Shown piece after piece: positions 8,361 through 19,935 of a stretch of DNA of 64,000 nucleotides. The first letter of the stretch is position 1. The number at the start of each line of letters is the position of its first letter. The position numbers and the translations under genes are program-made. The notes below the pieces were generated by a model. It was given only the letters and a program-made list of their open reading frames with translations. It searched no databases and was not told the origin of the DNA. Source of the DNA: Bradyrhizobium paxllaeri (lineage in GTDB: Bacteria > Pseudomonadota > Alphaproteobacteria > Rhizobiales > Xanthobacteraceae); NCBI RefSeq assembly GCF_001693515.2, contig NZ_CP042968.1, positions 3,968,001 through 4,032,000 of the forward strand. Reading direction: 5' to 3'.

Positions 8361-9047
8361 TCAGGGCACGGAATTGCCGGCCGCGGTCAGATCCAGCGGC
8401 TGTTGCGGCCAGCGTTTTAACGCTGCATGGCCTGCATCGGTCAGGACATAGATGCCGCGCTCGGCGCGATCGAACCAGCCATAGACATTATGCAGCAGGA
8501 TTTTGCCGGCATCGGGAATCTGGGCGCGCAGATCCCTGACCCGCTGCGGGCCGCCCGACAGCGCCGAGGCGCAGGCCAGCGCCTGCTGCCGGTAAGCCGT
8601 CATGATCGGCGCGCGTGTCGATCCGCCCAGGACGGGATCGCCCTTGCGTTTCTGATGCTCCGCGATCAGCCGCGAGCGCTTTTTGGGATCGCGGCGAGGC
8701 GCCGATGTCGGCGGCTTCACGATCACCTCGACATCGCCGGTATTGGTGACGGCGAGCATGCCGAAGCCAAGCCGGCGGCAGAGATTGCGGTAGCGCGCGT
8801 CGCTTTCGCGGCCCTTGCCGCGGGCAGACAGTTTGGCCGCGAGCCAGACCTCGTCGGCCGCGCCGGCGCGATCCACCGCTTGCAGGATCAGTTCCAGATT
8901 GAAGGAAAGCTTCAGTTCGCCGATCACCACGATCGGCGGATCGTCGCCGCTCAGCGCGACCAGGTCGCAGCCGCCGATCTCGCCCTTGACGGTGAAGCCG
9001 AGCTTTTCGAGGAAGCGTTTGACAGGAAGATATAGCGCGGTTTCCAA
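8361..9047 (-). CDS. DUF2161 family protein, PD-(D/E)XK nuclease-like
   Basis: 228-residue protein. The N-terminal half has the restriction-endonuclease-like core: GGCDLVAL (Asp28) and VVIGELKLS (Glu44-x-Lys46), then a helical region and a basic C-terminal half that ends in a winged-helix-like segment (VYGWFDRAERGIYVLTDAGHAAL). TTG start with GGAG 8 bp upstream. DUF2161 is usually annotated as a putative phosphodiesterase of the PD-(D/E)XK superfamily. Neighbours give no context for the role. Confidence 0.82.
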   Translation of the reverse strand: METALYLPVKRFLEKLGFTVKGEIGGCDLVALSGDDPPIVVIGELKLSFNLELILQAVDRAGAADEVWLAAKLSARGKGRESDARYRNLCRRLGFGMLAVTNTGDVEVIVKPPTSAPRRDPKKRSRLIAEHQKRKGDPVLGGSTRAPIMTAYRQQALACASALSGGPQRVRDLRAQIPDAGKILLHNVYGWFDRAERGIYVLTDAGHAALKRWPQQPLDLTAAGNSVP

Positions 9048-9239: not shown

Positions 9240-9953
9240 GTGCTGAAGGGACTGTACAAATTCCGTTTCACGACGGAGCGCGGGGAAGGCTCGGGCGTGA
9301 TGTTCGCGACCGCGGGCGGCAAGCTCTATGGCGGCGATTCCGGCTCTTCCTTTGTCGGCAGCTTCACCGAGGCCAACGGCATCCTCTCTTGCGAGGTGAC
9401 GATGTCGCGCCACTATCACGATCCCAAATTTGTTCCGATGTTCGAGGTCGAACATGCCGTGATGAACTTCACAGGCAAGCCGTGCGGCGAGGAAATTCAT
9501 TTCGAGGGCGGCAGCGCGGCCTTGCCCGGTGTCCATTTCACGACCGTTTTGAGCCCCATCGATGTTACCGACGCGCCGCCGCCCGGCGAGGTCGGGCCTG
9601 ACGCGATCAGCAACGGACTTTATTCGATCCACATCCGCATGCTCGACGGCATCGACGCCGGCAATACCGGTGTCATGATGCTGCGTGACGGCCGTATCCG
9701 CGGCGGCGACGCTTTCTTCGATTATATCGGCGCGTATTCGGCGGCGAATGGCAGATGGAAAGGCGAACTCGTCAACCGCGAGCATACGCCGTCCATGAGC
9801 GAGCGGCCGATATTCGGCGGCCATGAAGTCGGCATCGGTTTCTCCGGCACCTACGACGCCGACGGCGCCGTAGGCGAAGCCACCGCGCTCGCCGGCAAGC
9901 GCAGCATCCGCTTCAAGGCCGTGCTGCGAAAGCTGGTGGAGGTGGAGGGTTAA
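9240..9953 (+). CDS. Tandem GrlR-domain protein, paralogue 1
   Basis: 237 residues from GTG 9240, a start chosen because the two paralogues at 16151 and 19231 begin at the equivalent codon before G-L/F-YK-V/F-F. Two halves each resemble the GrlR fold (the small beta protein that represses type III secretion in enterobacteria). Half one: LKGLYKFRF, GVMFATAGGKLYGGDSG. Half two: SNGLYSIHIRMLDG, GVMMLRDGRIRGGDAFFDYIGAY. The C-terminus carries HTPSMSERPIFGGHEVGIGFSG, nearly invariant in all three copies. It is the most diverged of the three. An ATG at 9207 is an alternative start. Converges with and overlaps by 4 bp the SDR gene. Confidence 0.72.
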   Translation: MLKGLYKFRFTTERGEGSGVMFATAGGKLYGGDSGSSFVGSFTEANGILSCEVTMSRHYHDPKFVPMFEVEHAVMNFTGKPCGEEIHFEGGSAALPGVHFTTVLSPIDVTDAPPPGEVGPDAISNGLYSIHIRMLDGIDAGNTGVMMLRDGRIRGGDAFFDYIGAYSAANGRWKGELVNREHTPSMSERPIFGGHEVGIGFSGTYDADGAVGEATALAGKRSIRFKAVLRKLVEVEG

Positions 9954-10630
9954 ACCCTCCCGTTCACCGGCAGCAGCGCGCCGGTGACGGCGCTTGCGGC
10001 GTCGCTGGCGAGGAAGAGGATCACCTCGGCCAATTCCTTCGGCGTCACCCATTTGGCGAAATCGGCTTTGGGCATGCTGGCGCGGTTGGCCGCGGTGTCG
10101 ATGATCGACGGCAGCACGGCGTTGACGGTGATCCTGCCCTTCAACTCCGCGGCAAGCGCTTCGGTGAGGCGGTGCACGCCAGCCTTGGAGGCGGCGTAGG
10201 CGCCCATGCCGGCGCCTGCCTGCAGTGCGCCCATGGCGCCGACATTGACGATCCGCCCGGCACCCGATGCGACGAGATGCGGGATCGCCGCGCGCGACGC
10301 ATTGAGCGCGGTCGTCACGTTGAGCGCGTACATCCGCTGCCATGTCCTGGGATCGCCATCGGCCACCGTCTCGAAGGCGAAGCCGCCGGCGATGTTGATC
10401 AGCGCGTCGAGCTTGCCGAAATGCCTGGCCGCGGCGTCGATCGCCTTCCTGGCTTGCGCCGCGTCGGTGAGGTCGACGCCGCCGAGTTCGAACAGATCGG
10501 CGGTAGCGGGAGCTTGCGTCGGCGCGTGATCGACGCTCGCAATCCTGGCGCCGCGCGCCAGCGCCTCGTCGGCGACGACGCTGCCAAGCGCGCCGAGAGC
10601 CCCCGTCACCACAATGACCTTTCCGTCCAT
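9950..10630 (-). CDS. SDR family NAD(P)-dependent oxidoreductase
   Basis: 226-residue classical short-chain dehydrogenase. Rossmann motif VTGALGALGSVV at the N-terminus, INIAGGFAF (NAG-like), the catalytic YAASKAG and a C-terminal substrate loop. Start ATG 10630 has GGAGG at good spacing. The typical TGxxxGxG reads TGALGALG. Substrate unknown. Its 3' end overlaps the end of the GrlR-type gene. Confidence 0.88.
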   Translation of the reverse strand: MDGKVIVVTGALGALGSVVADEALARGARIASVDHAPTQAPATADLFELGGVDLTDAAQARKAIDAAARHFGKLDALINIAGGFAFETVADGDPRTWQRMYALNVTTALNASRAAIPHLVASGAGRIVNVGAMGALQAGAGMGAYAASKAGVHRLTEALAAELKGRITVNAVLPSIIDTAANRASMPKADFAKWVTPKELAEVILFLASDAASAVTGALLPVNGRV

Positions 10631-10759
10631 GATGGCCTCCGTACGCGGGGGAAATGGCAAGCGCACACTAGCGCCTGCATATTTTCATTTGCAATGCGGC
10701 GATTTTGGCGACGAAATACCCCTGCAACGTGAGATGGTATCACACAGCGGAGGTTTCAA

Positions 10760-11482
10760 ATGGTTGACAATTTCGCCGTCGCCGATCTCCCTGACGAAGT
10801 CATCGGCTTCAAATACCCGCTTCCGAATCTGGCGCGAAGCCTGAAGCAGCGAAACACTAAAATCGTTGCCTTTGGTTCCTCGTCGACGGCGGGAACGCGT
10901 CAGGTCGTGCCCTTTCCGGCCTACCTTGAGTTGATGCTGAGGAACGAGTTCGGCACCGAGATGACCAGCGAGTTCGGCAAACGGATGATCAACGTGATCA
11001 ACCGGGGAGTCGGCGGCGAGGAGGCGTCGACCGAACTGCCGCGCATGCAATCCGATGTAATCGACGAGGCGCCGGCGCTGGTGATCTGGCAGGTCGGCAC
11101 CAACGCTGTCTTTCGCAACACGGTGCCGGAATTCGCATTCGAGAAAGTCTTCGCCGCCATTGCGGAGGGGCTGGATCGCCTGTCCAAACTCCCTACCGAT
11201 GTCATCCTGATGGACTCGCAATACGCGACCGCCGTCGTGACACCCGAGAAGAAGCCGCTCTCCGAGGCGATGGTGAAGCGCATATCCGAGTTGGCTGAGG
11301 TCGCCGGGGTCGATGTGTTCCGTCGCTACGCCCTGATGGAGCGGTGGCACATCGCGATGCGAGAATTGGTCGATCCGGCCGATGACCTCGCACTCCACTT
11401 GAGCGACTGGGCAACGCGGAACGTCACGGAGGCGCTGTTCAGTCAAATCAAGAGGATGGTGAAGGCGGCCGACGCCACGTAA
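10760..11482 (+). CDS. SGNH/GDSL-type hydrolase
   Basis: 240 residues without a signal peptide. Block I reads AFGSSSTAGT (nucleophile Ser in a GSSS variant of GDS), block II NRGVGGEEAS (Gly), block III WQVGTNAVF (Asn), and the C-terminal block has LALHLSDWA in place of DxxH with nearby Asp-His. Such proteins are esterases or lipases acting on acyl or acetyl groups. Ribosome site: CGGAGG about 9 bp before the ATG. Confidence 0.8.
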   Translation: MVDNFAVADLPDEVIGFKYPLPNLARSLKQRNTKIVAFGSSSTAGTRQVVPFPAYLELMLRNEFGTEMTSEFGKRMINVINRGVGGEEASTELPRMQSDVIDEAPALVIWQVGTNAVFRNTVPEFAFEKVFAAIAEGLDRLSKLPTDVILMDSQYATAVVTPEKKPLSEAMVKRISELAEVAGVDVFRRYALMERWHIAMRELVDPADDLALHLSDWATRNVTEALFSQIKRMVKAADAT

Positions 11483-11589
11483 GACTACGGGACGAGGCAA
11501 GATCGATAAAATTTGCCGGAGTTCTGTAAGCCGTTTGCAGACTCCGTTCGATACAAGCGGGTTCCAACAAGAAGGCAGGGGGATTTGTC

Positions 11590-11790
11590 ATGGGTTTGCC
11601 GGATCACGGTTTACCGCTTGTTCAGCTTAAGGAGCAGCGGCGCGACCTGGTCGTAGCGCTGCAAAATCGCAGCGGTCCGGTCTCGAGCTGGGAATTGATG
11701 CAGATCGCCGCGATCCAGCAGGCGATCTCGGCGTTCGAGGACGTCATCGCCGATCTCGACGCCGAAATGGAAATGGAAGCGGCGGCTTGA
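11590..11790 (+). CDS. Small conserved hypothetical protein
   Basis: 66 residues, with GCAGGGGG upstream of ATG 11590. Predicted all-helical (LVQLKEQRRDLVVALQNRS; MQIAAIQQAISAFEDVIADLDAEME), so probably a short coiled coil. No family that I can name. Confidence 0.6.
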   Translation: MGLPDHGLPLVQLKEQRRDLVVALQNRSGPVSSWELMQIAAIQQAISAFEDVIADLDAEMEMEAAA

Positions 11791-11862
11791 GCCGATAGGC
11801 GCGGCCTTCCGCAACTGCCACGACCCGCTTTACTGCTGGCGCGCGCCGGATAAGATCGCGCC

Positions 11863-12552
11863 ATGCGTGTTTCGGCAGTTCCACTCGCGCTCCTCGCATG
11901 GTGTGTTCAGCCAATGGCTGGCGCGAATGCCCAGGCCTGCGTCGCCGATCAACATGGCGGCCTCGTCTGCGGCGAGGGCAAGGCCGCGATGCGTGTCGTC
12001 GCCGACACCATTTCGCCCTCGAAGAATTACGCGTTCGCCTGGCGCAGCCCGCAGGGCCTGCCGTCAGGCAGCGATACTCCCGACAACATCGAAAACGTCC
12101 TGGTCCGCCTCAATGACGGCGCGGTGCTCGCCAAGCTCGGCGGCGAGTATTGGGCGACGGGCGAGATGCGCGCAAACCGCTACGAACTGACCGCCGCCTG
12201 GTCGCCGGACAGCCGATCCGTCATTGAGGTCGCGAACAGCCGGTGGGAAAGCGATTCCTTTGCCTATTACCGGATCGACGGTGCATCGGCGACCAGGCTC
12301 GATCTGCGTGCGCTGGTCGAGCCTGTCATGACAGCGAGGCTGCCGCCGCGAAATCGCCAGGGCAATTCCTTCCGCGTGCGGACGGATCAGCCGGTGACGC
12401 TCGATGCGCGCGGCCGCCTGCGCTTTACCGCGATGCTCTATGTGCCCAAGAGCGAAACCAGCAACGACTACAAGATACAGGTCAACGTCCGCACGACAGG
12501 CGGCAAACCGTCCGCGCAGGTCGTGTCGCTGCGGCGGGCGAAGGCGGATTAG
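11863..12552 (+). CDS. Exported hypothetical protein
   Basis: 229 residues with a Sec signal peptide (VPLALLAWCVQPMAGANAQA, cleavage near ANA-QA). The mature part has beta-rich sequence including YAFAWRSPQG, WSPDSRSVIEVANSRW and YYRIDGASATRLDL, reminiscent of a WD40/TolB-like strand pattern but too short for a propeller. Cys residues at CVADQHGGLVCGEG could form one disulphide. Function unknown. Confidence 0.7.
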   Translation: MRVSAVPLALLAWCVQPMAGANAQACVADQHGGLVCGEGKAAMRVVADTISPSKNYAFAWRSPQGLPSGSDTPDNIENVLVRLNDGAVLAKLGGEYWATGEMRANRYELTAAWSPDSRSVIEVANSRWESDSFAYYRIDGASATRLDLRALVEPVMTARLPPRNRQGNSFRVRTDQPVTLDARGRLRFTAMLYVPKSETSNDYKIQVNVRTTGGKPSAQVVSLRRAKAD

Positions 12553-12639
12553 CGCACGTCCATGCTGGATGAGGTTTCTTGCGTTGTAGCCGATCCTCTT
12601 CGCGACACCAGATAACCATTAAGGCGTCAGCTGTTGAAC

Positions 12640-12891
12640 GTGCGCGTCGTGATGGTTGGCTGCGCGTCGTTGCGAGTGCCGCAGACTTCGTCGTATCTTG
12701 CGCCCCCTTGAGTGTGGGGGTTAGCCCGTACGAGGTATTCAGCAGCTCGCCAAGGCGCTGTATCCTGCCTGTAGGCTTGCGGGAGAAGCGGAGCGATATC
12801 GCGAGTTCAGGATTGTCCGGTTGGCGGAAGTACCCAGCCTTGCGATCCGAGAGAAGAGCCCCGGCGCGCGCAGCGTCGGGGCTCTCTTTCT
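12640..12891 (+). ncRNA. Candidate structured RNA in a gene-free gap
   Basis: 343-bp gap with no credible ORF. It has a promoter-like TTGCGA/TATCTT pair (12670, 12694; 18-bp spacing), hairpins CCCCC-TTGAGTGT-GGGGG and AGGTAT..CAGC/GCTG.ATCCT, and ends in a strong intrinsic terminator at 12855-12891. Transcript of about 185 nt expected. Size and position would fit a 6S-type regulatory RNA, but I cannot confirm that by eye. It could instead be only the terminator of the minus-strand phosphatase gene. Confidence 0.38.
12855..12891 (+). terminator. Intrinsic terminator
   Basis: AGAGCCCCG stem with exact complement CGGGGCTCT, 13-nt loop, followed by CTTTCT. Works on the plus strand for the candidate RNA; on the minus strand it lies directly after the phosphatase stop codon, so it may serve both. 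Confidence 0.7.
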
Positions 12892-12895
12892 GATG

Positions 12896-13642
12896 TCAGC
12901 CTTGCAGATAGCGCGCTTCGAGATGGGCGCGTTCGGCTTCGCCGAGACCGAGGCCGTCGCGGAGATAGGTTTCGAGGTTGCCGTAGTCGGCGTCGATGGC
13001 CTCGAAGGCGGCGGCGAGGAACGAGGCCTGCACTGAACCAAGCACCTGCCTGATGTCGTCAGGCAGATCGGTGCTGTGATTGGGATCCCGTCGGTAGAAG
13101 CGGTTGGTCAGCAGATAGTCTTCCGAAATGATGTCCTCGGAAACGCCGAGCGTATGCAGGATCAGCGCGCACGCAAAGCCGGTGCGATCCTTGCCGGCGG
13201 TGCAATGGATCACCAGCGGCGCACGTTCTTCCAGCAAATGGGCGAACAGCGTCCGGTAGTGCCGCGTGTTCTTCTGTACGTAGCTGCGGTAGGAGTCGCG
13301 CATCACCTCGACGGCGTGGTCGGTCGATAGCGGTGTGCCGGCGGCCACGATCGCGCGTAGCGCCGCGACCACCGTGGGTTCGACCGGCAGCGAATGAACC
13401 GTGATTTCAGGCATGCCGCACAGGGCAGCGGTGCGCTCCTCGCTGCCGCGAAAGTCGAATGCGCTGCGGACGCCGAGCTCCCGCACGACGGAGACATCGT
13501 CGTCGGTGAGATGGCCGAGATGGTTGGAGCGAAAAATCTGCCGCCAGCGCACGGTTCGGCCGTCGCTGGTGGGATAGCCGCCGAGGTCGCGGAAATTGCT
13601 GGCGCCGTAAAGGTTGAGATGGCGGGCAGGGGAATCTGACAT
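12896..13642 (-). CDS. Tyrosine-protein phosphatase
   Basis: 248 residues from ATG 13642. P-loop VIHCTAGKDRTGFA carries the C-x5-R signature (HCTAGKDR) of the lipid/tyrosine phosphatase family found in bacteria (Tyr_phosphatase3). N-terminal NFRDLGGYPTSDGR and IFRSNHLGHLTDDD are family hallmarks, and YLLTNRFYRR follows the P-loop. Cytoplasmic. An upstream in-frame extension to 13723 is possible but lacks the family pattern. Target unknown. Confidence 0.88.
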   Translation of the reverse strand: MSDSPARHLNLYGASNFRDLGGYPTSDGRTVRWRQIFRSNHLGHLTDDDVSVVRELGVRSAFDFRGSEERTAALCGMPEITVHSLPVEPTVVAALRAIVAAGTPLSTDHAVEVMRDSYRSYVQKNTRHYRTLFAHLLEERAPLVIHCTAGKDRTGFACALILHTLGVSEDIISEDYLLTNRFYRRDPNHSTDLPDDIRQVLGSVQASFLAAAFEAIDADYGNLETYLRDGLGLGEAERAHLEARYLQG

Positions 13643-13734
13643 CAATGCATCAGGGGTTCGAACGGAGAATATGGGACGGATCGGGTGTCGTTCCGCCTCG
13701 TCTCGTCTATACTGAACTCTCACGGGGGCGAAAC

Positions 13735-14052
13735 ATGAATCGGCGGAACATCACGATTTTTGGCGCGGCGCTGGGCCTCGTCGCGATTGCAGGTGCGGCA
13801 TCGCCGGCAACGGCGCAGTCCAGCTTCCGGAACTACCGTTGCGCCGACGGATCGCAATTCATGGTCGGATTTTTCCAGTACGACAAGCGCGCCCATCTGC
13901 AACTGGACGGCAAGGCGGTGACGCTGCCGAAACGTTGGGCCCTGTCGGGCTCGCGTTATCAGGCGAAGGGTGTGACCTTACGGATCACCAAGGCCGGGGT
14001 TACGACGCTCAAGCACGCCAAACGGAAGACCACGACATGCGAGCAGACATGA
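13735..14052 (+). CDS. MliC-like lysozyme inhibitor domain protein
   Basis: 105 residues. Signal peptide with cleavage near ATA-QS, then an MliC-type domain: YRCADGSQFMVGFFQYDKRAHLQLDGK, LP, SGSRYQAKGVTLRITKAG and a final TTTCEQT supplying the second Cys. MliC proteins bind C-type lysozyme in the periplasm through the Gly-x-x-Tyr/Lys loop. No lipobox is seen, so it would be a soluble periplasmic form. GGGGGCG ribosome site. Followed by an intrinsic terminator. Confidence 0.72.
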   Translation: MNRRNITIFGAALGLVAIAGAASPATAQSSFRNYRCADGSQFMVGFFQYDKRAHLQLDGKAVTLPKRWALSGSRYQAKGVTLRITKAGVTTLKHAKRKTTTCEQT

Positions 14053-14087
14053 AAAAGGGCCGAAACGCTTTCGTTCCGACCCTTTTC
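14052..14087 (+). terminator. Intrinsic terminator of the MliC-like gene
   Basis: AAAAGGGCCGAAACG and CGTTCCGACCCTTTT pair with two G-U positions, loop CTTT, T-rich end. Confidence 0.7.
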
Positions 14088-14145
14088 TAGTTCTCCGTCC
14101 GCGCCTCGTTTGCCGGGCGCGTCCCTGCCAAACACCTCCCAGGCA

Positions 14146-14352
14146 TCAGTGATCCCGCTCGTTGCTGGCGTCCTGGATCGCCGCGGCGTGGTACCAGCTA
14201 TCGCAGCAGTCAGCGAGGTTGACCGGCTGGGCAGCGGCAAACTCGGTTACAGCTTTGGTCTCGCCATAGCGACGTCCCCCGAGAGCCGCCCGGCCCCCGG
14301 CTGGGAATTGGTAGATCTTGGCGGTCCCCTGATTCAAACCCGTAGTCATCAT
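14146..14352 (-). CDS. gstI: GstI-type DUF2735 protein, divergent from glnII
   Basis: 68 residues starting MMTTGLNQGTAKIYQFPAGG, the hallmark TAKIYQFP of DUF2735. AAGGAG lies 7 bp before the first of two adjacent ATGs. In rhizobia GstI is a roughly 63-residue protein encoded divergently from glnII that lowers glutamine synthetase II production at the translational level when nitrogen is plentiful. Both the sequence and the divergent position next to glnII support the same role here. The CC pair in LADCCDSWYH is near the C-terminus. Confidence 0.72.
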   Translation of the reverse strand: MMTTGLNQGTAKIYQFPAGGRAALGGRRYGETKAVTEFAAAQPVNLADCCDSWYHAAAIQDASNERDH

Positions 14353-14920
14353 CGGAAATCTCCTTCTGTCGACGCGCGAGCCTCCATGGTGCGCCCGACT
14401 CGTTCTTGAGTGGTTACGTAAGTCGATATTGTCGGTGCTCCGGGCGGGTGCAAGTGACCAAGAGAGCGGCAGATTTTGTCTATTTCGTAGGCAGTTTCGG
14501 CGCTGCTTCCTGCGAGGCAGCGGTCGCGTGATCAACGCCTGGGCCGGCGGGATGGTTGCTCGGGTAGGCCGACGGCCCTTGCAGCGACTTCAAAACGGTG
14601 CCGCACCTTTAAGCGTTTAGCGGTCAGCAGGCGGAAATGCCGGAGAAATGGGCTGGATTCGGGTTGCCGGCCTGCCGCTGGACTGCCGGATTTGCGGGTC
14701 TGCCGCGCTCCTATGTCGCAGCTTTTATTTTAGGCCCCGAGGGCAAGCCCTGTGGATGACCGTTGCCGCACTGCAGCGATTGGCACGTTAAATGCTTAGT
14801 AAGGCGTGGCCTACGTGGCCGGGTACACGTATGCGAAAGACCTCCGGGGGCTGGGCGTCACACCTCAGATTTCAAGCGTCGGTCTTCCGCATTTCACAGA
14901 AGCAACTCAAGAGAGGCTCA
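14353..14920. promoter_or_regulatory. gstI/glnII divergent regulatory region
   Basis: 568 bp without a credible ORF between the divergent gstI and glnII starts. It contains the sigma-54-type element described separately at 14781. No perfect NtrC palindrome (GCAC-N-GTGC type) was found by eye. The segment 14660-14720 holds several GCCTGCCG-like words of unknown significance. Confidence 0.6.
14781..14797 (+). promoter_or_regulatory. Sigma-54-type promoter of glnII
   Basis: TGGCACGTTAAATGCTT has the invariant GG (14782-14783), exactly 10 bases, then GC (14794-14795), as required for sigma-54 RNA polymerase. Start of transcription would be near 14806, giving a leader of about 115 nt before the glnII ATG. 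NtrC-dependent sigma-54 control of glnII is established in Bradyrhizobium. Confidence 0.8.
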
Positions 14921-15958
14921 ATGACCAAGTACAAGCTCGAGTATATTTGGCTCGACGGCTATACGCCGACGCCGAGTTTGCGCGGCAAAACGCAGATCAA
15001 GGAATTCGACAAGTTCCCGACGCTGGAACAGCTTCCGTTGTGGGGTTTTGACGGTTCGTCCACCAATCAGGCCGAAGGCCACAGCTCCGATTGCGTGCTG
15101 AAGCCGGTCGCCGTCTATCCGGATGCCGCGCGTGAAAACGGCGCGCTGGTGATGTGCGAAGTCATGATGCCGGATGGCAAGACCCCGCATGCCTCGAACA
15201 AGCGCGCGACCATCCTCGACGATGAAGGTGCCTGGTTCGGCTTTGAGCAGGAATATTTCTTCTACAAGGACGGCCGTCCGCTCGGCTTCCCGTCGGATGG
15301 CTATCCGGCGCCGCAGGGCCCGTACTACACCGGCGTCGGCTACAAGAACGTCGGCGACGTCGCCCGCAAGATCGTGGAAGAGCACCTCAACCTCTGCCTC
15401 GCCGCCGGCATCAACCACGAAGGCATCAACGCCGAAGTGGCGAAGGGCCAGTGGGAATTCCAGATCTTCGGCAAGGGCTCCAAGACCGCGGCCGACCAGA
15501 TGTGGATCGCCCGCTACCTGATGCTGCGCCTCACCGAATCCTACGGCATCGACATCGAATTCCACTGCAAGCCGCTTGGCGATACCGACTGGAACGGCTC
15601 GGGCATGCACGCCAACTTCTCGACCAAGTACATGCGCGAAGTCGGCGGCAAGGAATACTTCGAGAAGCTGATGGGTGCCTTCGAGAAGAACCTCATGGAC
15701 CACATTGCCGTCTACGGGCCTGATAACGACAAGCGCCTGACCGGCAAGCACGAGACCGCACCCTGGAACAAGTTCAGCTACGGCGTGGCTGACCGCGGCG
15801 CCTCGATCCGCGTTCCGCACTCCTTCGTCAACAACGGCTACAAGGGCTATCTGGAAGACCGCCGCCCGAACTCCCAGGGCGACCCTTACCAGATCGCTTC
15901 GCAGATCCTGAAGACCATCTCGGAAGTCCCGACCGGCGCCAAGGCGGCCGCCGCTTAA
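14921..15958 (+). CDS. glnII: Glutamine synthetase type II
   Basis: 345-residue eukaryote-like GSII that makes glutamine from glutamate, ammonia and ATP. Beta-grasp domain with WGFDGSSTNQAEGHSSDC, catalytic domain with WFGFEQEYF (metal-binding Glu), GINHEGINAEVAKGQWEFQ, NGSGMHANFSTK and the C-terminal RRPNSQGDPYQIA. Length and motifs are those of rhizobial GlnII, not the 470-residue GlnA. Start follows AGAGAGG. Sigma-54 promoter upstream and gstI opposite point to nitrogen-limited expression. Confidence 0.97.
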   Translation: MTKYKLEYIWLDGYTPTPSLRGKTQIKEFDKFPTLEQLPLWGFDGSSTNQAEGHSSDCVLKPVAVYPDAARENGALVMCEVMMPDGKTPHASNKRATILDDEGAWFGFEQEYFFYKDGRPLGFPSDGYPAPQGPYYTGVGYKNVGDVARKIVEEHLNLCLAAGINHEGINAEVAKGQWEFQIFGKGSKTAADQMWIARYLMLRLTESYGIDIEFHCKPLGDTDWNGSGMHANFSTKYMREVGGKEYFEKLMGAFEKNLMDHIAVYGPDNDKRLTGKHETAPWNKFSYGVADRGASIRVPHSFVNNGYKGYLEDRRPNSQGDPYQIASQILKTISEVPTGAKAAAA

Positions 15959-15995
15959 GGCACGGACGACAGGCTCCGGGACACCGGGGGCAAAG

Positions 15996-16040
15996 ATGAT
16001 CCGCCAAGGCAAAAACCGCCTTGGCGGATCATTGCGTTTT
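15996..16040 (+). terminator. Intrinsic terminator of glnII
   Basis: ATGATCCGCCAAGGC and its exact complement (15 bp), loop AAAAACC, followed by TGCGTTTTG. Confidence 0.85.
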
Positions 16041-16150
16041 GATGACACGGCGTCCTGGCGGGGCCGGGATTAAATCCGACCGTTCAAGACCGTTCCCCTG
16101 GGTTGTGAACCGCGCTAGACACGGGCCGTGAGCTTGCCGGGGACACGGCA

Positions 16151-16855
16151 TTGTTTGAGGGATTTTACAAGGTCAGGTTTCAGCTTGGCGCTTCGGTCGG
16201 CCGCAGCGTGATGTATGCGCGTGACGGCAGGATGCTGGGCGGCAACTCCGCCTTTGCCCATATCGGCACCTACGAAAAGCAGGACGACGGCGTCGACGTC
16301 GTGATCCAGACGGTGCGCCACAACCCGGATCCGGCCTATCGCGCGATGGCCGGTACCGACGATGCCACCCTGCTGGCGAAGGGCAGGGCGGACGGAAACC
16401 TCTACCGCTTTGAAGGGGGCTTGAAGGAATTGCCAGGCGTGGCGTTCCAGTCGGTGATGACGCCGATCGAGCAGGACGTCATACCGATCGCCGGCGGTGT
16501 CGGCGCGGGCGGTATCGTCAATGGTCTCTATTCCATCCACGTTCGCCTGCTCGATGGCGTCGAAGGGGGCCTCACCGGCGTGATGCTGCTCAACGAGGGC
16601 CGCATCCTCGGCGGCGACGCATCCTTCTACTATGTCGGCACCTACACCTCGGAGAACGGCCGCTGGAAGGGCCAGATCCTCAATCAGGAGCATACGCCAT
16701 CGATGGGCGAGAACCCGATCTTCGGCGGCCATGAAGTCGGCATCGGCTTTTCCGGCACCTGCGATGGGGAAGGCGCGCTGCTGGAGGCGACCGCGCTCGC
16801 CGGCAAGCGCAGCCTTCGCATGACCGCGGTGCTGAAGCTGATGCGGCGGGTGTAG
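16151..16855 (+). CDS. Tandem GrlR-domain protein, paralogue 2
   Basis: 234 residues from a TTG start (MFEGFYKVRF) with GGGGACA upstream. N-half: GRSVMYARDGRMLGGNSAFAHIGTY. C-half: NGLYSIHVRLLDGVEGG, GVMLLNEGRILGGDASFYYVGTY, then NQEHTPSMGENPIFGGHEVG. Each half follows the GrlR pattern of G-x-Y start, a glycine-containing hairpin and GGD/GGN. No signal peptide, so cytoplasmic. A ModA-like protein gene follows after only 6 bp, suggesting co-transcription. Close to paralogue 3, less close to paralogue 1. Confidence 0.75.
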   Translation: MFEGFYKVRFQLGASVGRSVMYARDGRMLGGNSAFAHIGTYEKQDDGVDVVIQTVRHNPDPAYRAMAGTDDATLLAKGRADGNLYRFEGGLKELPGVAFQSVMTPIEQDVIPIAGGVGAGGIVNGLYSIHVRLLDGVEGGLTGVMLLNEGRILGGDASFYYVGTYTSENGRWKGQILNQEHTPSMGENPIFGGHEVGIGFSGTCDGEGALLEATALAGKRSLRMTAVLKLMRRV

Positions 16856-16861
16856 CGGCCG

Positions 16862-17545
16862 ATGAGCGATGCCATCCGCGTGCTCTCGACGCTGGCGTTG
16901 AAGGGCGCCGTCCATGGCCTGGCCGGCCAATATCAGGCGGCCGGCGGCGCACATATCGATGCCGATTTCGCACCCACATTGGCGCTGCTCGACCGCTTGC
17001 GCGCGGGCGAAGCCGCCGACGTCGTGATCCTGACCCGTGAGGGGCTCGACGAGGTCGCCCGCGAGGGGCGGGTGGCCGCCGAGAGTTGCGTGGATCTGGC
17101 CCGCTCATGGGTCGGCATCGCCGTGAAGGCGGGGGCGGCCCATCCCGATATCGCCACTGAGGCCGCGCTGCGCGAGACGTTACTCGGCGCGCGCGTGGCC
17201 TATTCGCGGCTTGGCGCCAGCGGCATCCTGTTCGCAAATCTGATCGAGCGGCTCGGCATTGCCGCCGATATCAACACCCGCGCCGTCATCATCCCGCAAG
17301 GCTTCACCGCCGAGCGGCTCGTAACCGGCGAGGCCGATCTCGCGGTCCAGCAGATCAGCGAGTTGAAACAGGTCGGCGGCATCGAGGTGGTCGGGCCCAT
17401 TCCGCGCGAACTGCAGACGGCTGCGGTGTTTTCGGCGGGGCGAATGGCGGCATCGCCGAACGCGGGCGAGGCAGAGCGGCTGCTGCGGTTTCTCGCGTCA
17501 CCCGACGTCGCGCCGGCGCTGCGCGAGAGCGGGCTCGAGCCTTGA
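16862..17545 (+). CDS. ModA-like substrate-binding domain protein without signal peptide
   Basis: 227 residues with the type II periplasmic-binding fold of the molybdate group: VLSTLALKGAVHGLAGQYQ, DVVILTREGLDEVAREG, VAYSRLGASGILFANLIERLGI and LVTGEADLAVQQISELKQVGGIEVVGPIP. The protein begins directly with the first domain strand (MSDAIRVLSTLAL) and has no export signal, unlike true ModA. It may therefore be a cytoplasmic ligand-binding protein. Gene sits between paralogue 2 and the Sel1-repeat gene, which overlaps its end by 4 bp if the upstream TTG is used. Confidence 0.75.
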   Translation: MSDAIRVLSTLALKGAVHGLAGQYQAAGGAHIDADFAPTLALLDRLRAGEAADVVILTREGLDEVAREGRVAAESCVDLARSWVGIAVKAGAAHPDIATEAALRETLLGARVAYSRLGASGILFANLIERLGIAADINTRAVIIPQGFTAERLVTGEADLAVQQISELKQVGGIEVVGPIPRELQTAAVFSAGRMAASPNAGEAERLLRFLASPDVAPALRESGLEP

Positions 17546-17577
17546 ATTTGGTGTCCCGTCGAAGCAACCTGCGTCTC

Positions 17578-18402
17578 ATGAAGGGGACGTTCCGAAACCT
17601 GCTGATCGTGACCGTTGCCGCCGCCATAGCGCCGACGCCCTTGGCTGCGCAATCGGCCGACCTCGTGCTGTGCGACCGCGTGGCTGCCGATCCCGCCGAT
17701 CCGGACAAGCCGGCCGACGCGAAAGGCGTGCCCGATATTGCGGCCTCTGATATCGCGACGGCCATCAAGTTTTGCAGGAACGCCGCGAATACGTCGCGGC
17801 GCGCGATGTACCAGCTCGGGCGCGCCTACGCGGCCAATCGGCAGTTACCGGAAGCGGTGGCGGTCTGGCGCAAGGCGGCCGACAAGGGCTCGACCTCGGC
17901 GATGGTTGAACTCGGCGTGCTCTACGCAACCGGCGCCGGCGTCGCTCGCGATGAAGCGCAGGCACGAAAACTGTTCGAGCGCGCGGCGCAAGCCGGCAAT
18001 CCGCGGGGCGTCAGCAATCTCGCCGCCCTCGGCGGTGGCGCGTCATCCGATCCGGCGCGTGCACGCGAATTGCTGTCGAAGGGCGCCGAGACCAACGCCG
18101 AGGCGCAGTATCAGCTCGGCATGATGCTGGCGGAAGGCAATGGCGGGACCAAAGACGATGCTGCCGCCCGTGCGCTGTTCGAGAAGGCGGCGGCGCAAAA
18201 TCATCCCGGCGCGCTGGAGCGAATGGGCGCGTTCGCGCAGGAAGGGCGCGGCGGACCAAAGGATGCGGAGGCCGCCAAGGCCTATTATCAGCGCGCTGCC
18301 GCACTCGGCGACGAGGATGCGAAGAAAGCGCTGGAGCGGCTGCGCTGTCCCTATGCGATCAAGGACAAGCGCGGAAACGTGGTCACCAATCTGTGCTTCT
18401 GA
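17578..18402 (+). CDS. Sel1-like repeat exported protein
   Basis: 274 residues from ATG 17578 (TTG 17542 possible). Signal peptide with cleavage near AAQ-SA. Mature part has about five Sel1/TPR-like repeats of 36 residues, e.g. AMVELGVLYATGAGVARDEAQARKLFERAAQAG, AQYQLGMMLAEGNGG and ALERMGAFAQEGRGGPKDAEAAKAYYQRAAALGD. These proteins act as periplasmic scaffolds. Two Cys near the ends (VLCDR, RLRCPY...LCF) may form a disulphide. Confidence 0.82.
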   Translation: MKGTFRNLLIVTVAAAIAPTPLAAQSADLVLCDRVAADPADPDKPADAKGVPDIAASDIATAIKFCRNAANTSRRAMYQLGRAYAANRQLPEAVAVWRKAADKGSTSAMVELGVLYATGAGVARDEAQARKLFERAAQAGNPRGVSNLAALGGGASSDPARARELLSKGAETNAEAQYQLGMMLAEGNGGTKDDAAARALFEKAAAQNHPGALERMGAFAQEGRGGPKDAEAAKAYYQRAAALGDEDAKKALERLRCPYAIKDKRGNVVTNLCF

Positions 18403-18413
18403 CGCGCTGACGC

Positions 18414-18857
18414 TTACTCCCGGATCAACACGACGCCGGCGATCAACAGCACCGCGCCCGCGAGCCGCGCGGCGCCGATGGGATGCGGCGTCAGCCCGAA
18501 TGCGCCGAAATGATCGAGCGTCACCGCGGCCAGCACCTGGCCGGCAATGACAAGCGCAAACAGCGTCGCTGCGCCGAGCGAGGGTAGCAGAAAGATCGCC
18601 AGCAGGATGAACGCGCCGCCGAACACGCCGCCGGACCACGCATACCAGGGCACGTCCGCCATCGTTTTCCAGGACGGCACGCGCTCGCCGAGCGCAATGA
18701 CGGCGACAATCATGGTGATGAGCCCGCCGGCATAGCTGACCAGTCCCGCCCATGCGGGTGAATCGAGCGCGGTGCGCAGGCTGCTATTCAACATCTGCTG
18801 GGTCACGACGCTGACGCCGGCGCCGAGCGCGAGAAGATAGAAGAAGAAATGTTGCAC
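18414..18857 (-). CDS. DMT superfamily membrane protein, DUF606/YdcZ type
   Basis: 147 residues with five predicted membrane helices (FFFYLLALGAGVSVVTQQ; WAGLVSYAGGLITMIVAVIAL; WYAWSGGVFGGAFILLAIFLL; GAATLFALVIAGQVLAAVTL; GAARLAGAVLLIAGVVLI). The QQMLNSSLR motif in helix 1 is typical of the 145-residue half-size DMT proteins that work as dimers. Substrate unknown. Confidence 0.82.
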   Translation of the reverse strand: MQHFFFYLLALGAGVSVVTQQMLNSSLRTALDSPAWAGLVSYAGGLITMIVAVIALGERVPSWKTMADVPWYAWSGGVFGGAFILLAIFLLPSLGAATLFALVIAGQVLAAVTLDHFGAFGLTPHPIGAARLAGAVLLIAGVVLIRE

Positions 18858-18996
18858 GTGATCCCCCGGTTATTTCCTGCCGGCGGAGCGATCCGGCATT
18901 GCAAGGCCGAAGACAACGCGAATAGCTGGATCGGAACAAGAGGGACCGCCGCGCGATTACTACAGGGCAGGGGCCCGCCAATAAGCGGAGCTTGCC

Positions 18997-19146
18997 ATGA
19001 TCCGAAAACTGCAGTCAGGCGAATACCGGCTCTATTCCCGCAAAATCAATCCGAAAACGGGCAAGCGCCGTAACCTTGGAACCTTCAAATCGCGGGCAGC
19101 GGCCGAAAAGCACGAACGGGCCGTACAATATTTCAAGCGGCACTGA
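18997..19146 (+). CDS. Small basic conserved protein (49 residues)
   Basis: Reads MIRKLQSGEYRLYSRK then NPKTGKRRNLGTFKSR and AAAEKHERAVQYFKRH. AGCGGAG lies 7 bp before the ATG. Composition (over 25% Lys/Arg) and the SGEYRLYSRK/TGKRRNLGTF pattern resemble the N-terminal DNA-binding (arm-type) domain of integrases and the KGKWRV-like small rhizobial proteins. Too short for most gene callers. Function unknown; nucleic-acid binding is inferred. Confidence 0.7.
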   Translation: MIRKLQSGEYRLYSRKINPKTGKRRNLGTFKSRAAAEKHERAVQYFKRH

Positions 19147-19230
19147 ACCTTGCGTTAATTCGCGGCTGGCACCTCGCCTGCGGCGGTGCTAAGCCCCCGC
19201 CAGACATTTTCGATATCAGGACATTTTCCG

Positions 19231-19935
19231 TTGCTGAACGGGCTTTACAAGGTTGAGTACGGCGTCAACGACGCGTTCGGCCGCAGCATCATGTGCATGC
19301 ACAATGGCAAGATGCTAGGCGGCAATTCCGCCTTTGCCCATCTCGGCACCTATCAGGAGATCGGCGGGGAAATTGTCGGCGAGGTCATCACCCAGCGCCA
19401 CAATGACGATCCCCACTACAAACCGCTGATGGACACCGACGTCGCCGCCATCAGCGTGCGGGGCAGGCTGAAGGACAACAAGATTCGCTTCGAGGGCAGC
19501 GCCGCGCCACGGCCGGGCGCCTTGTTCTGGGCGGACCTGACGCGGCTCGACGATGAGGCGCTGCCGCCGGTCGGCATCGTCGGGCCGGGCGGTATTACCA
19601 ACGGACTCTACTCCCTGCAGCTCCGCGCGCTCGACGGGATCGAGGCCAACTTGTCGGGCGTGATGCTGCTACTGGACGGTCGCATCCTCGGCGGCGACGC
19701 CTTCTTCTACTACCTCGGTTCCTACGCGTCGGCCGACGGCCGCTGGAAGGGCGAGATCCTCAACCAGGAGCACACGCCGGCGAAAGGCGAAAACCCCGTG
19801 TTCGGCGGCCATGAGGTGGGCATCGGGTTTACCGGCACCTGCGACGAAGCGGGGGCCGAGCTCGAAGCCATTGCATTGGCCGGCAAGCGCAGCCTGCGGC
19901 TGGCGGCGACGCTGAAGTTGATGCGGCCGGCCTAG
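19231..19935 (+). CDS. Tandem GrlR-domain protein, paralogue 3
   Basis: 234 residues from TTG 19231 (GTG 19186 also in frame), beginning at the codon equivalent to the starts of paralogues 1 and 2. N-half: NGLYKVEYGVNDAFGRSIMCMHNGKMLGGNSAFAH in two overlapping motifs. C-half: NGLYSLQLRALDGI, GVMLLLDGRILGGDAFFYYLGSY. Tail HTPAKGENPVFGGHEVGIGFTG. Same length and architecture as paralogue 2. Converges with the small membrane protein gene, the two stop codons overlapping. Confidence 0.75.
   Translation: MLNGLYKVEYGVNDAFGRSIMCMHNGKMLGGNSAFAHLGTYQEIGGEIVGEVITQRHNDDPHYKPLMDTDVAAISVRGRLKDNKIRFEGSAAPRPGALFWADLTRLDDEALPPVGIVGPGGITNGLYSLQLRALDGIEANLSGVMLLLDGRILGGDAFFYYLGSYASADGRWKGEILNQEHTPAKGENPVFGGHEVGIGFTGTCDEAGAELEAIALAGKRSLRLAATLKLMRPA

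Follow-up and report, generated by a model that had tools for sequence, protein, structure and literature searches.

What are three genes for GrlR-like proteins doing within 10.7 kb of one strand in Bradyrhizobium paxllaeri? The fold of GrlR is known from enteric pathogens, and the genes in question, here called A, B and C, lie in the window that we analyzed, a stretch of 64,000 nucleotides (positions 3,968,001 to 4,032,000 of NZ_CP042968.1, and part of the one 8.38 Mb contig of this genome; coordinates below count from its first letter). An earlier note, made from the sequence alone, had described genes of near-equal length at 9240, 16151 and 19231, with a shared two-domain plan and equivalent GTG or TTG starts, and our analysis bears this out. 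Gene A (9240..9953, forward strand, GTG start) is an open frame of 237 residues comprising an N barrel (9240-9557), a linker (9558-9608) and a C barrel (9609-9950). Genes B (16151..16855; N barrel 16151-16465, linker 16466-16513, C barrel 16514-16852) and C (19231..19935; N barrel 19231-19545, linker 19546-19593, C barrel 19594-19932), likewise on the forward strand, encode 234 residues each from TTG, and the three start codons fall at the equivalent residue when the proteins are aligned. We tentatively read A, B and C as covalent pseudo-dimers of the GrlR type which regulate by contact, with a confidence somewhat short of even.

The profile of each half matches the other half in all three proteins, and the N and C halves are therefore homologous. 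AlphaFold2 models cover the whole of B and its C half. Whole B, modeled from 43 sequences picked for diversity from 116 two-domain copies, is predicted to form two sets of eight strands, sixteen in all (mean predicted local distance difference test score, pLDDT, 89.2; predicted template modeling score, pTM, 0.87), this pTM suggesting a fixed arrangement of two barrels; the C half alone, modeled from 45 sequences out of 54 references prepared, is predicted to form eight (pLDDT 89.3, pTM 0.83). For both models the top Foldseek matches in the PDB are chains of Escherichia coli GrlR, and the eight-stranded beta-barrel of that protein is present in both predictions, consistent with the GrlR-like domains proposed in the earlier note. 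The same note had pointed to a nearly invariant C-terminal block and diverging N-termini, as is indeed the case: pairwise identities (A-B/A-C/B-C) are 67/62/72% for the C halves and 32/32/42% for the N halves (over the whole protein, B is 49% and C 47% identical to A), the FGGHEVGIGF block is identical in A, B and C, and the C half is the more conserved in 898 of 903 sequence pairs. The conserved FGGHEVGIG falls within the least confident part of the B model, residues 181-200 (block means 53 and 75). Ratios of nonsynonymous to synonymous substitution rates of 0.02-0.32 per half (21 comparisons with named relatives) indicate that all three genes are under purifying selection.

GrlR of the E. 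coli locus of enterocyte effacement (PF16518; 2ovs, 3e3c, 4kt5) is the solved structure that Foldseek places nearest to the B model, with which it shares the predicted eight-stranded barrel and short GxY and GG[DN] motifs near the N-terminus. It differs in being a single domain of about 118-127 residues, where A, B and C fuse two domains in 234-237. Several observations weigh against reading A, B and C as pseudo-dimers of the GrlR type. PF16518 scores 20.7 bits for A and 22.1 for C, under the Pfam cut-off of 26.8, and does not match B; its six-frame search of the genome returned expect values (E) of 0.03-0.32, none over the cut-off, and two unrelated control genomes were also matched below the cut-off. 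None of the 43 aligned sequences has, at the equivalent hairpin of its N or C half, the EDED motif through which GrlR reportedly binds GrlA (acidic residues there number 1-4 in N halves and 0-1 in C halves), so any contact surface must differ from that of GrlR. A search of the genome for the GrlA/CaiF family (PF07180), a partner which the earlier note had suggested looking for, gave no match at E <= 1; as a control, PF07180 passed its cut-off in one genome, and E. coli was among the two genomes with any match. Designed barrels and Cap15 also score about as well as GrlR itself (VIA-align), and the fold alone therefore says little about function. The C-half profile matched no PDB sequence at E <= 5, and the sole NCBIfam match was that of C to IF-1, at chance level (E 0.077).

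The association with GrlR is already known at the level of names. In the 120 best-ranking of 2507 matches, B is 91% identical to a protein in B. retamae and 85% identical to one in B. erythrophlei that NCBI calls 'GrlR family regulatory protein', a name that is annotation only; we found no paper on tandem GrlR proteins, or on a 'GrlR family', in the open-access literature searched. The VtrA/VtrC bile-salt receptor, a lipocalin-like regulatory complex, is compared with GrlR/GrlA in PMC4933562; it differs from A, B and C in being a periplasmic heterodimer.

As covalent pseudo-dimers, A, B and C would be cytosolic proteins in which two lipocalin-like barrels of the GrlR type are joined in one chain, each protein probably acting as the equivalent of a GrlR homodimer. 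By analogy, a two-barrel chain is how a fused GrlR dimer would be expected to look, the step from fold to function being one that we infer, and the model would have the two barrels pack against each other. The C barrel, which is conserved and includes the long FGGHEVGIG loop, may carry the common function, and the faster-evolving N barrel may give each paralog its own specificity. Action would be through contact with a partner protein, not DNA binding, and could be gated by a hydrophobic ligand, possibly a lipid. Since GrlR and GrlA are encoded in one operon, the most likely candidate partner of B would be the ModA-like protein of its own operon, which supplies a concrete partner hypothesis; no partner gene is visible for A and C. 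Lipid binding in the barrel is reported for GrlR in PMC4933562.

The ModA-like solute-binding protein (SBP_bac_11; 16862..17545, forward strand; Pfam PF13531, E 5.9e-35) begins 6 base pairs (bp) after B in the window, an operon-like pair. Across the 48 B copies assigned by best BLAST match, a ModA-like gene directly follows B in 44, spaced -1 to 6 bp from it in 41 of those, and glnII lies upstream in 46, at a median spacing of 192 bp. The alignment of the ModA-like protein to the 1amf ModA chain runs from residue 5 to residue 5, leaving no room for a signal peptide, which by sequence it seems to lack; its score against the ModA model is 20.1 bits (cut-off 62.5). A terminator-like hairpin with a 16-pair stem (15995..16033, forward strand), contained in a 102-base stretch with a predicted fold of -54.3 kcal/mol, insulates the B operon from upstream glnII, as judged from its predicted structure. 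Closer to B, a conserved block GAACCGCGCTAGA (16107..16119, forward strand; columns 60-100% conserved in the 48 B upstream regions) is perhaps the -10 part of a promoter belonging to B; a scan for the sigma-70 consensus upstream of B found no match. It is followed by a conserved leader GCCGGGGACACGGCA (16136..16150, forward strand), in which a Shine-Dalgarno-like GGGGA precedes the TTG start and the intervening ACGGC is conserved at 66-87% per column in the 48 copies. A short hairpin, GCCG-CGGC, of five pairs might also form in the leader.

The earlier note took three copies within 11 kb to suggest local amplification, and a recent tandem amplification of one gene would account for their position on one strand within 10.7 kb. 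This account is scarcely credible, however, and we reject it, because A, B and C each belong to an orthologous group of their own, old and conserved in synteny: a tree of the 116 two-domain copies resolves the three groups strongly over many species (A, 30 rows, 100/99; C, 28, 100/93; B clade, 49, 98/91; 9 outside), A and B retain their own neighbors, and the N halves are as divergent as described above. An ancient local duplication is possible. Best-BLAST groups number 30 for A, 48 for B and 38 for C, the 48 omitting L045, a copy that falls in the B clade of the tree and has neither glnII nor a ModA-like gene next to it. In a tree of 62 domains, drawn from 23 of the 116 two-domain copies together with nine C-type and seven N-type single-domain GrlR-like proteins of Hyphomicrobiales, N halves cluster with the free-standing N-type and C halves with the free-standing C-type (100/100); fused N halves form one group (99/95), and fused C halves do so weakly (37/22), with several long branches. 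As each half groups with a different free-standing type, the simplest history is probably one fusion of two subfamilies, not the doubling of one domain. The single-domain proteins differ from A, B and C in having one barrel, and those of the C-type carry an ATG shortly before NGLY in the 14 intact copies found at fetched loci, a search whose pattern required M.

That A, B and C regulate the rhizobial type III secretion system (T3SS), as the GrlR name suggests, appears to us quite improbable. The genome does encode hrcV (at 5,080,963; 917.9 bits, over the cut-off), with secretin-like pieces near 5.06 Mb that fall below their cut-off, and the earlier statement that no secretion genes are here thus holds for the window, within which neither search found a match, but not for the genome. 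In addition, grlR of S. fredii is predicted to repress its T3SS (PMC9952627), and the five sampled genus genomes that lack a strong two-domain match all lack hrcV over the cut-off as well (Fisher p 0.020, ignoring kinship). Yet strong two-domain matches (best E < 1e-100) occur in 93 of the 98 sampled genus genomes while hrcV passes in 52, which makes a strict T3SS role unlikely; 41 of the 93 carriers are without hrcV over the cut-off, A, B and C adjoin DUF2161, SDR, glnII and other genes about 1.1 Mb from hrcV with no genetic linkage to a T3SS, and GrlA was not found in the genome. The GrlR fold is thus present here in a fused, paralogous form that is not regularly associated with type III secretion, and since GrlA is also not found in this genome, annotations of 'T3SS negative regulator' in Bradyrhizobium are probably misleading. 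A different proposal is that these are ligand carriers or sensors of a lipocalin- or calycin-like kind, with no transcription-factor partner of the helix-turn-helix (HTH) class, whose barrels bind small hydrophobic ligands and to which the B operon adds an anion- or metabolite-binding ModA-like protein. We consider this rather doubtful, lipocalin matches being at E 0.03 or worse. Bolder still, and in our view unlikely, is that B is a natural covalent heterodimer of GrlR-type barrels, forming with the ModA-like protein a two-ligand cytosolic sensor that operates without an HTH partner or T3SS in core Bradyrhizobium regulation.

Beyond the genus sample, two-domain matches at E <= 1e-60 were found in 34 of 198 genomes (8 of 47 genera) of the family; in the order sample 17 of 297 genomes match, seven outside the family matching one domain only, and in the class sample the C domain was matched in 8 of 385, two of these being Bradyrhizobium. 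Carriers include, by name, Bradyrhizobium, Tardiphaga, Rhodopseudomonas and metagenome-assembled genomes of Xanthobacteraceae (67 loci kept of 293 stretches). Searches with B found no match in phage records and one partial match in plasmid records. The B. paxllaeri genome itself also holds three C-type and one N-type single-domain copies.

By gene order and sequence identity, the nearest counterparts of the window are in B. jicamae and B. lablabi. Gene A is flanked by a convergent SDR gene in 29 of 30 A copies and by a divergent DUF2161 gene (8361-9047 in the window; a putative PD-(D/E)XK protein) in 30 of 30. In other species a single-domain copy may occupy the place of A (e.g. L059, L071) or stand next to it (L028, L041), or the place holds no such gene (L038, L055). 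A PepSY gene comes after C both in the window and at ten loci from close relatives; at several other loci C sits elsewhere or the locus ends. Three Tardiphaga-type copies have RND efflux-like genes alongside (names judged by eye), and the ten loci of distant copies inspected share no common neighbor. Downstream of the B operon lies a Sel1-repeat protein (17578-18402) with a weak ExoR-like match (49.9 bits, cut-off 450).

In-frame starts further upstream are present for A and C. In an A relative (L017), however, a stop lies just two codons before the equivalent start codon, and in several C relatives a stop lies six codons before it, so that the equivalent codon is likely the start of both. At this codon the 116 two-domain copies have TTG in 63, GTG in 36, ATG in nine and other codons in eight. 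The idea that the non-ATG starts have a special meaning was considered and dropped, since the nearby DUF2161 (TTG in 46 and GTG in 6 of 52 orthologs) and YdcZ-like genes (GTG in 18 and ATG in 7 of 26) share the trait; chiefly ATG starts were found for the GNAT, 7912, SDR, 13735, ModA-like and Sel1 genes, in a comparison that leaves out glnII, tyrosine phosphatase and PepSY, and AraC, SGNH, hyp11863 and TonB (2-6 rows). In some relatives a copy of A, B or C is divided between two frames, at about L016 16165-16837, L027 9886-10709, L042 4888-5666 and L066 13289-14026, reflecting either decay or draft sequence errors. Lastly, a single N-type GrlR-like gene at L007 1432-1815 is a better type III candidate than A, B or C: it lies 43 kb from the first type III secretin-like piece, adjoins an IS66-like frame (judged by eye), and has relatives on three Bradyrhizobium plasmids and one Phyllobacterium plasmid.
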